Assembly: GCA_027082175.1 (NCBI GenBank)
Contig: JALWIX010000043.1
Location: 1-56,136, forward strand
Reading direction: 5' to 3'
Source of the DNA: Campylobacterales bacterium
GTDB taxonomy: Bacteria > Campylobacterota > Campylobacteria > Campylobacterales > Nitratiruptoraceae
Length of the DNA: 56,136 bases
Shown: in pieces, positions 20,463-22,886 of the stretch
Position numbering within the stretch: the first letter of the stretch is position 1
Layout of the letters: each line of letters begins with the position of its first letter
Notes under the pieces: model-generated
Seen by the model: only the letters and a program-made list of their open reading frames with translations
What the model was told of the DNA's origin: nothing
Databases searched by the model: none
Translations under genes and position numbers: made by a program

Positions 20463-20837
20463 TCATAAGCCGAAAAACTCTTTTACAAAATGCAACTCTT
20501 CTTGATTTTTTAATACTATCTTTTTAACGACTTTTTTATCGTCGTCCAATACGTAGACGGTTTTGCCTTCAAGTTTAATATGCGTTTTTCCCCATTTTTT
20601 GAGTAATTCGTCAAAAGCTACGAAAACTTTTGAGTTAGCTACGTCTAAATCTTTGCCCGTTCTTTTGTCTATAATATCTAAACCTCCAAACTCTTTTCTA
20701 ATCTCATACGGAAAAGTTTCTAAAATTTCGCTATATACTCTTTTACTCTTTTTTTCGGGCATATTGGTAACAAGTGCTACTACGCTCAAAAAAAGAAAAA
20801 CTATTGCAAAACCCCAAAGAAGTCTTTTACTAAACAT
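20463..20837 (-). CDS. Small membrane-anchored protein of unknown function
   Basis: This 124-residue protein has one N-terminal membrane anchor (about 7-24, WGFAIVFLFLSVVALV) followed by a charged, probably periplasmic domain rich in Lys, Asp and Val (KLEGKTVYVLDDDKKVVKKI). I do not recognise the family. ATG 20837 has AAAGGAT upstream and overlaps the end of the siroheme dehydrogenase gene by eight bases, so it is translated with that gene. A link to tetrapyrrole or respiratory enzyme assembly is only a guess from position. Confidence 0.65.
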   Translation of the reverse strand: MFSKRLLWGFAIVFLFLSVVALVTNMPEKKSKRVYSEILETFPYEIRKEFGGLDIIDKRTGKDLDVANSKVFVAFDELLKKWGKTHIKLEGKTVYVLDDDKKVVKKIVLKNQEELHFVKEFFGL

Positions 20838-21411
20838 TTCGATCCTTTTTAAAATAGTTTTCTATATACTCTTTTGCCTTACTATCTAAAAGTTTTTGTC
20901 TCTCTTTGCCTTTAGGTAGTTTTTTCCTTAAATTTTTTAATTCTTTTATAAAATTTTCGATATCTTTTGGAATCGTTTTTTCAATCGCTCTTCTTAAATA
21001 TTTTGCCAATGAGGGAGAAGCGCCGGAAGTAGAAAAAGCGATTGTCAAATCTCCTCTTTTGATGTATGAAGGAAATATAAAGTCGCAATACTCCACGCTA
21101 TCAACGCTATTGCATAGAATCTTTTTATCTTGACACTCCTGATATACTTTTTTTTGAAGTTCCAAATCGTCAGCAGCTACAATAACTATATAAAAACCGT
21201 CTATATCTCCGCTTTTATACTCTCTACTTATATATTTAAGAGAGTTATGATCTATAAAATCTTTTACTCTTTGATCTATTCTAGGTGATATTATAGTTAT
21301 ATCTTTTGTAAAATCTAAAAGATGACAAATCTTATCTCCGGCGATTTTACCTCCGCCTATTACAACAATTTTTTTATTAGTTAAGTTTACAAACGCAGGA
21401 AAATAACTCAT
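20830..21411 (-). CDS. Precorrin-2 dehydrogenase / sirohydrochlorin ferrochelatase-type protein (Met8/SirC)
   Basis: This 193-residue enzyme is the NAD-dependent step from precorrin-2 toward sirohydrochlorin and siroheme. AAGGAG six bases before ATG 21411 sets the start; a longer frame upstream is not needed. The Rossmann motif VVIGGGKIAGDK lies near residue 15, and the family segment FIFPSYIKRGDLTIAFSTSG follows near residue 115, with SPSLAKYLRR after it. It lacks the methyltransferase half of CysG. The divergent neighbour acts on siroheme, so this gene probably feeds that step. An FNR-type box and two palindromes lie in the shared upstream region. Confidence 0.88.
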   Translation of the reverse strand: MSYFPAFVNLTNKKIVVIGGGKIAGDKICHLLDFTKDITIISPRIDQRVKDFIDHNSLKYISREYKSGDIDGFYIVIVAADDLELQKKVYQECQDKKILCNSVDSVEYCDFIFPSYIKRGDLTIAFSTSGASPSLAKYLRRAIEKTIPKDIENFIKELKNLRKKLPKGKERQKLLDSKAKEYIENYFKKDRNV

Positions 21412-21471: not shown

Positions 21472-21485
21472 TTGATGACTATCAA
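21472..21485. promoter_or_regulatory. FNR/Crp-type box at -41.5
   Basis: TTGAT-GACT-ATCAA is a perfect match to the FNR-family consensus TTGAT-N4-ATCAA. A TACAAT -10 at 21508-21513 predicts transcription from about 21520, which places the box centre at -41.5, the classic class II activator position for the downstream siroheme decarboxylase gene. Control by a Crp/Fnr-family regulator under low oxygen or nitrosative conditions is inferred. Confidence 0.75.
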
Positions 21486-21541
21486 GGAAAAAGAGAGAAA
21501 ATATCAATACAATTTATTTAAATCATAAGATAGAGGTTCAC

Positions 21542-22531
21542 ATGGAAAAAGAGTTTTTAAATATAATCCAAAAAGAGTTTCCTATTTGCGAAAGACCTTT
21601 TAAAGATTTGGCCGAGAAATTGGGAGCCGAAGAGAAAGAGGTTTTAAATCTGTATAAGAGGTTGAAAGATGAGAAAATAATTCGTCAAACATCCGCGATT
21701 TTTGATACCAAATCATTAGGTTACAGCTCGTCTCTAGTGGCTTTTAAAACAGACGATATAGAAAGAGTTGCCGAGTTTGTAAATACGCATCCAGGTGTTA
21801 GTCACAACTATGAAAGAGACAACCCTTTTAATCTTTGGTTTACTCTCGCCGTTCCTCCAGATAGTGAACTTGGACTTGAAAATACGATAAAAATAATGGC
21901 CCAAAAAACCGGAGTTAAAGAGTATATTATACTCCCAACCAAAAAGATGTTCAAAATTTCCGTACAATTGGACGTAAAAGGCGAAAAAGCTAAAAAAGAG
22001 AAAATTAAGAAAAAAGAGAAGATTAAAATAGAGCTAGAACCTATCCATTTCGAGCTTATAAAAACTTTGCAAGAAGATATAGAGCCTATACAAAAGCCTT
22101 TTGAAAATATAGTGGATAGTTTAAATATAGACTACGATTTTTTAAAAAGAGAAGCTAAAAAATTACAAGATGCCGGCATTATGAGACGTTTCGCCTCAAT
22201 TTTATATCACAGAAAAGCAGGATTTAAGGCAAACGCTATGGTTGTATGGAAAATTCCGGAAAACAGAGCCGAAGAGATCGGTCAAAAAGTTGCCGAGTAT
22301 AGCGCCGTTAGTCACTGTTATCTTAGACCGGTTTATCCAAACTGGCCGTATCCTCTTTTTTCTATGATCCACGGCAAGAGCAAAGATGAAGTGGAAGAGG
22401 TGGTTAACGAAATCGCAAAAGAGATAGAGGCTACGGAGTATAAATATCTATATTCTACTAGAGAGTTTAAAAAGGTGAGGATTAAATATTTTTCACCAAA
22501 ATTTAAAGAGTGGGAGAAAACTTATGGATAG
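21542..22531 (+). CDS. Fused siroheme decarboxylase (AhbA-AhbB / NirDL-type)
   Basis: This 329-residue protein is made of two Lrp/AsnC-like halves (about 1-150 and 165-329). Each has a winged-helix start and then a decarboxylase core: GVSHNYERDNPFNLWFT in the first, AVSHCYLRPVYPNWPYPLF in the second. These blocks mark siroheme decarboxylase subunits, which turn siroheme into 12,18-didecarboxysiroheme for haem d1 (cd1 nitrite reductase) or the alternative haem route. The window's hemA and hemC serve common early steps, so haem d1 is the likelier goal. In many bacteria the two halves are separate proteins. An FNR-type box precedes the gene, and it overlaps the next gene by eight bases. Confidence 0.88.
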   Translation: MEKEFLNIIQKEFPICERPFKDLAEKLGAEEKEVLNLYKRLKDEKIIRQTSAIFDTKSLGYSSSLVAFKTDDIERVAEFVNTHPGVSHNYERDNPFNLWFTLAVPPDSELGLENTIKIMAQKTGVKEYIILPTKKMFKISVQLDVKGEKAKKEKIKKKEKIKIELEPIHFELIKTLQEDIEPIQKPFENIVDSLNIDYDFLKREAKKLQDAGIMRRFASILYHRKAGFKANAMVVWKIPENRAEEIGQKVAEYSAVSHCYLRPVYPNWPYPLFSMIHGKSKDEVEEVVNEIAKEIEATEYKYLYSTREFKKVRIKYFSPKFKEWEKTYG

Positions 22532-22886
22532 TATAGCTAATTTTTTCAAAGAGGAGATAATATATATCTTTATCTCTTTATTTATTTTAGGGATAACCGT
22601 ATTTGTGACTACAAGACCGTTTATGTCGAAAAAAGCAAAATTAGCGATCCCTTTTATGTTTCTTTTTTTAACTTTAGCGCTTATTGCTCACTATAATCTA
22701 AGAATGGAACATATAAAAGAGGTAAGAGAAGCATTTGAGGAAGGAAAAGATATAATGTGTCTAGATAAAACAAATAAAATAGGTCACGTAATGGTAAAAA
22801 AAGGCGAGTGGAGATTAAAAGGGGATACTTTTGTAAATCCTGAATTTGCGAGAGTCTATAATATCAGACAATGTATAGTCGAATAG
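22524..22886 (+). CDS. Small two-helix membrane protein linked to siroheme decarboxylase
   Basis: This 120-residue protein has hydrophobic segments at about 12-30 and 39-58 (AIPFMFLFLTLALIAHY). A short hydrophilic tail follows with two cysteines (IMCLDK and IRQCIVE), plus GHVMVKKGEWRL. I do not recognise the family. Its start overlaps the siroheme decarboxylase stop by eight bases, so the two are translationally coupled, and the FNR-type box presumably controls both. A role in haem d1 or respiratory-enzyme maturation is an inference from context only. Confidence 0.65.
   Translation: MDSIANFFKEEIIYIFISLFILGITVFVTTRPFMSKKAKLAIPFMFLFLTLALIAHYNLRMEHIKEVREAFEEGKDIMCLDKTNKIGHVMVKKGEWRLKGDTFVNPEFARVYNIRQCIVE

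Follow-up and report, generated by a model that had tools for sequence, protein, structure and literature searches.

The siroheme decarboxylase gene ahbAB of a Campylobacterales bacterium is preceded by a perfect palindromic box of the DNR/Nss (FNR) type, TTGATGACTATCAA, which very probably serves as the operator of a promoter under class II activation, at which a DNR-like Nss regulator, most likely the NssB-type protein encoded on contig C109, would sense nitric oxide (NO) and turn on ahbAB for the supply of haem d1 to the nitrite reductase NirS. The box was examined in a window of 56,136 nucleotides, the whole stretch of DNA that was analysed, and in the genome to which it belongs. In the mechanism proposed here, the regulator, a member of the Crp/Fnr family whose gene most likely lies beside norECB, would bind TTGAT-N4-ATCAA upon sensing NO or a related nitrogen oxide; at -41.5 it would replace the -35 element and bring RNA polymerase to the hexamer TACAAT, and ahbAB would be switched on together with the small gene after it. 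AhbAB would then convert siroheme to 12,18-didecarboxysiroheme, from which NirJ, NirF and related proteins of the nor-nir cluster would make haem d1 for NirS. As read from the sequence, the lone ahbAB gene is very probably switched on together with the respiration of nitrite, nitric oxide and nitrous oxide.

The box (TTGAT GACT ATCAA) lies at 21472-21485, with its centre at 21478.5, and is assigned to neither strand. Twenty-two bases 3' of it on the forward strand stands the -10 hexamer TACAAT (21508-21513), followed by the predicted transcription start at 21520, a likely ribosome binding site AGAGG (21532-21536) and the ATG of ahbAB at 21542. The predicted start was placed at an assumed distance of 7 nt after the hexamer; it falls 48 bases beyond the first T of the box, and together with the gap of 22 bases it puts the centre of the box at -41.5. 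A consensus scan of the forward strand found no sigma-70-type -35/-10 pair here, and the layout is that of class II Crp/Fnr promoters, with a site near -41.5 (counted from the predicted start) and about 22 bases before the -10 element. The initial annotation had placed a perfect box at -41.5 before the siroheme decarboxylase gene, and its sequence and coordinates proved exact, the start being predicted. Directly 3' of the box, at 21486-21490, there is a GGAAA (or GGA-A) that is strongly conserved among the nearer relatives only and is absent from the other boxes of the genome.

The product of ahbAB (21542-22531, forward strand, 329 aa) is a fused siroheme decarboxylase of the NirDL type, and both its AhbA and its AhbB half score above the curated cut-offs (NCBIfam NF040708 and NF040707). 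The protein can be aligned from end to end with the solved NirD-like siroheme decarboxylase 4ch7 (E 9e-83), which is likewise a fused two-domain protein, and no difference of kind between the two was seen in the sequence. The genome holds a single copy of the gene. Siroheme decarboxylase yields 12,18-didecarboxysiroheme, on which NirJ acts in the synthesis of haem d1 (PMC12505453). Overlapping the stop of ahbAB is orf120 (22524-22886, forward strand), a small protein with a hydrophobic N-terminal part and no Pfam or NCBIfam match. In 43 loci with ahbAB, a few of them duplicates, it is the next gene downstream on that strand, and it is likely to share the ahbAB transcript. Divergent from ahbAB is a gene of the Met8/CysG-N type (20830-21411, reverse strand; TIGR01470 above cut-off) for a precorrin-2 dehydrogenase/ferrochelatase of siroheme supply, an arrangement found in 55 loci. 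After it comes orf124 (20463-20837, reverse strand), a small protein for which searches of Pfam and NCBIfam gave no family match, and which is kept upstream and divergent in 52 loci. Both small proteins are candidates for a part in haem d1 or NirS maturation. Somewhat more speculatively, the two divergent pairs with the box between them might form a siroheme branch-point switch kept across the Campylobacterota, in which one Nss protein would set both the supply of siroheme and its diversion into haem d1, the two small proteins being new haem d1 or NirS maturation factors; we put this forward as a tentative idea.

The strong evidence for the box is comparative and comes from the upstream regions of 68 ahbAB orthologues of the order, that of the window included. 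A perfect box is present in 27 of them and a box with at most one mismatch in 54, which leaves 14 in which it is missing at that tolerance; in shuffled upstream DNA the corresponding frequencies are 0.075% and 1.3%. A hexamer of the form TANNNT stands exactly 22-23 bp downstream in 51 of the 54 boxed orthologues, against a background of 3.5% per position. Among the 31 nearer orthologues there are 17 perfect boxes, 13 with one mismatch and one with two, and TANNNT occurs at a gap of 22 or 23 in 29 of 30. The 37 distant orthologues have 10 perfect boxes, 14 with one mismatch, eight with two and five with none, and in 22 of 24 the hexamer is again found at one of those gaps. These rows share descent and are therefore not independent, but the distant ones have only 53-61% protein identity, and among them the interval between box and hexamer shows little sequence conservation. 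Clostridial and most other outside homologues have no such box upstream.

Within the window, TTGATGACTATCAA is the only perfect match, where dinucleotide shuffles give a mean of 0.15; at least one perfect match turned up in 13 of 100 shuffles, which makes the window by itself weak evidence. With 7 found and 5.5 expected, one-mismatch sites are at chance level here and were left out of the argument. Across the genome, perfect sites number 14, and a reversed-pattern control gives 4. The shuffles that do contain a match are what an accidental palindrome in AT-rich DNA would have in its favour, and yet the conservation of the box and its fixed spacing among orthologues in effect rule this origin out, leaving it a negligible probability. 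It is also improbable, though less extremely so, that the main function of the box, as an activator or a repressor site, is at the divergent Met8-type gene, or that it serves both sides. Its palindromic form, its place in an intergenic region shared by the two genes and the wide retention of their divergent arrangement speak for such a role; however, the constant spacing of 22-23 bases is to the -10 element on the ahbAB side, the nearest -10-like hexamer on the other side (TATGAT) is 18 bases off, and orthologues with no Met8-type gene found upstream (e.g., L089, L102 and L108) still carry the box. A site for the divergent gene only was judged unlikely, since the spacing follows ahbAB and the box is kept without that gene.

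The initial annotation had held that the gene makes a precursor of haem d1 and that a cd1-type nitrite reductase would be found elsewhere in the genome. NirS and haem d1 genes do occur on other contigs, and the first claim is borne out by the AhbA and AhbB/NirDL domains, by these d1 genes and by co-occurrence across genomes. Contig C94 carries in a row nirS, a second protein of the cytochrome d1 family, nirJ, nirF, nirE and clade II nosZ, and on contig C109 norE, norC and norB adjoin a Crp/Fnr gene. As nirS is cut by the end of C94 and lacks its start, the order norECB-nirS was read from the relatives G077, G103 and G090, in which norE, norC, norB and nirS are consecutive on one strand with a TTGAY-N4-RTCAA box before norE. 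In another relative, G064, ahbAB and its divergent partners lie directly beside the nos-nir cluster, whereas the genome of the window has this module elsewhere. Among 299 genomes of the order, AhbAB is encoded in 106 and strong hits to the cytochrome d1 family in 110, with both in 102; PF02239 covers relatives of NirS, NirF and NirN, so that the co-occurrence is with the d1 family and not with NirS alone. The names NirS, NirF, NnrS-like and NorB-like rest on PF02239 or on reading of the sequence, no NCBIfam name being assigned at the threshold used, and for the radical SAM gene of the cluster the best-scoring model is NirJ, although its strict cut-off is not reached. Against a role of AhbAB in the alternative (Ahb) route to haem b, which was considered unlikely, stand its nearly one-to-one occurrence with the cytochrome d1 family and the top score of the radical SAM gene with the NirJ model.

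The initial annotation had also proposed scanning the genome for the same box before nir, nor and nos genes, and several of the targets in such a scan are indeed denitrification or NO genes. Of the 14 perfect sites, eight stand 56-100 bp in front of genes or operons; these targets were drawn from perfect-pattern matches and the surrounding stretches, and several of their names come from reading the sequence. They are ahbAB; the gene after nosZ (nos-accessory); a small gene with a norB-like oxidase gene behind it; a 114-aa gene that precedes one of the NnrS-like type; a hemerythrin-like gene, likewise upstream of an NnrS-like gene; and the genes for an Mrp/ApbC-type ATPase, an aldehyde dehydrogenase and a cytochrome c. 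In each of the eight cases a -10-like hexamer, matching at no fewer than 4 of 6 positions, follows at a gap of 21 or 22, whereas hexamers of the form TANNNT occur at that gap in two of 12 readings of the other six perfect sites. Seven of the eight genes recur with their boxes in the relative G077, the aldehyde dehydrogenase site being judged by position only. Before napA and norE the site takes the form TTGAC-N4-GTCAA, with TAAAAT at a gap of 22; no good site was found before nosZ itself, and nirS is reached by a box solely through the norE site, as read from relatives. TTGAT-N4-ATCAA, or more loosely TTGA-N6-TCAA, is common to nor, nir and nos genes.

Some features of these sites may be recorded for their own sake. 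The napA (L023 13353-13366) and norE (L026 3163-3176) sites are TTGAC-N4-GTCAA, whereas those of the nos-accessory, norB-like, NnrS-like and ahbAB genes are TTGAT-N4-ATCAA, which may mean that each of two Nss proteins has its own class of site. In L024 (576-2869), a 192-aa gene with a perfect box 75 bp upstream precedes a 542-aa norB/cox1-like gene, which could encode a second NO reductase apart from norECB. The boxed Mrp/ApbC-type ATPase gene, of an Fe-S carrier family by reading, has its site at L029 4040-4053, 62 bp upstream and kept in G077, and suggests that Fe-S repair may be part of the regulon.

A Crp/Fnr regulator, which the initial annotation had called for, was sought in the genome, and three proteins above the PF13545 cut-off were found, on contigs C109, C41 and C24. 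The first two have a DNR-type recognition helix, PETFSR in the C109 protein and PETLSR in the C41 protein, while the third reads RHVVNR there; the best solved match of the C109 protein is DNR, and PETFSR is common to both. None of the three has a cysteine in its first 95 residues: the C109 protein has none at all, the C24 protein one (residue 98) and the C41 protein five, all at or after residue 96. The N-terminal Fe-S cysteines of FNR are accordingly found in none of them, none approaches the cut-off of the Fnr subfamily model, and the Campylobacterota encode no FNR orthologue according to a review (PMC6682613). The genome contains, then, a DNR-like regulator with an E-x-x-S-R helix and without Fe-S cysteines. 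The third protein (L025 4060-4731), with its unlike helix, adjoins fumarate reductase-like genes.

The identity of the motif with the FNR consensus of E. coli would speak for an oxygen-sensing Fe-S FNR, but the missing cysteines and the lack of a model match, together with the absence of a known orthologue in the phylum, largely refute this reading, and we reject it as very improbable. The site is better called a DNR/Nss box than an FNR box, and since the regulators lack the FNR cysteines and the likely activator is a DNR-like Nss protein of the NssB type, NO is a likelier signal than oxygen. The initial annotation had tied an FNR-type box to denitrification responsive to low oxygen or NO; the tie to denitrification is upheld by the boxed targets, the nir, nor and nos genes and the conservation, but the low-oxygen half found no direct support, the FNR cysteines being absent. 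A more serious competitor, possible if less probable, is that the nap-linked, NssA-type C41 regulator chiefly uses the site, with nitrate and not NO as the signal for ahbAB, or that both Nss proteins share it. Its helix is equally suitable, its contig also carries a boxed NnrS-like cluster and napA, and in Wolinella succinogenes nitrate, NO and N2O act through NssA, NssB and NssC to raise the same reductases (PMC6682613). Yet the relatives G018 and G064 retain the ahbAB box, and their Crp/Fnr proteins over the cut-off are one of the C109 type and one other, which is weakly similar at best to the C109 type and was taken as the third type; no NssA-type protein was found there. This pattern, along with Nss-like regulator genes within about 600 bases of ahbAB in seven relatives (G130, G141, G206, G271, G216, G028 and G071), favours the C109 type as activator. 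From its location beside norE, as in Nitrosophilus labii, we infer that the C109 protein is of the NssB type, and it is this protein that would most likely bind the ahbAB box and activate the promoter.

In Pseudomonas, nirS and the d1 genes behind it, among them nirDLGH, form one cluster. Here, unlike there, ahbAB is unlinked and has its own box, and the regulator would be an Nss protein. The long-known DNR regulon of Pseudomonas and beta-proteobacteria, with its consensus CTTGATnnnnATCAAG, resembles the present set in its motif, in its kinds of targets (nir, nor and nos) and in the recognition helix of its regulator (PMC1274295). Within the Campylobacterota, W. succinogenes NssA, NssB and NssC and Campylobacter jejuni NssR belong to the same regulator group as the proteins considered here and respond to nitrate, NO, N2O or nitrosative stress (PMC6682613, PMC8139620); the reported signal of W. 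succinogenes NssB is NO (PMC6682613), the genes reported as responding in that species are nap, nrf and cnos (PMC8139620), and C. jejuni NssR differs in using TTAACnnnnGTTAA (PMC1274295). The closest counterpart is N. labii HRV44. One Crp/Fnr gene lies beside its nap genes and another beside nor, with products that share 44.8% and 50.0% identity with W. succinogenes NssA and NssB, and napA, norE and nosB are each preceded, 48 or 49 bases ahead of the predicted start, by an exact TTGA-N6-TCAA site (PMC11539149). The norE and nosB sites, at 48 bases (PMC11539149), have the geometry of the ahbAB box, and the neighbourhoods match those of the genome of the window in gene order and distances, which makes it probable that the organism is a Nitrosophilus-like member of the Campylobacterota. 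The N. labii paper makes no mention of siroheme; new relative to it are the ahbAB, norB-like, NnrS-like, hemerythrin and Mrp targets. As counterpoints, most denitrification genes of N. labii were expressed constitutively under anaerobic conditions, and a negative effect on nosZ was inferred for its nap-linked Crp/Fnr regulator (PMC11539149).

The ahbAB site and its wide conservation are a well-supported extension of the known Nss/Crp-Fnr regulon. The first step from siroheme to haem d1, although encoded away from nirS, keeps the operator and the spacing of the denitrification genes, and the published regulon is thereby extended to cofactor supply, over several families of the Campylobacterota. 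The control of denitrification in this phylum is little known, and the result provides a short, testable list of genes that may be co-regulated.
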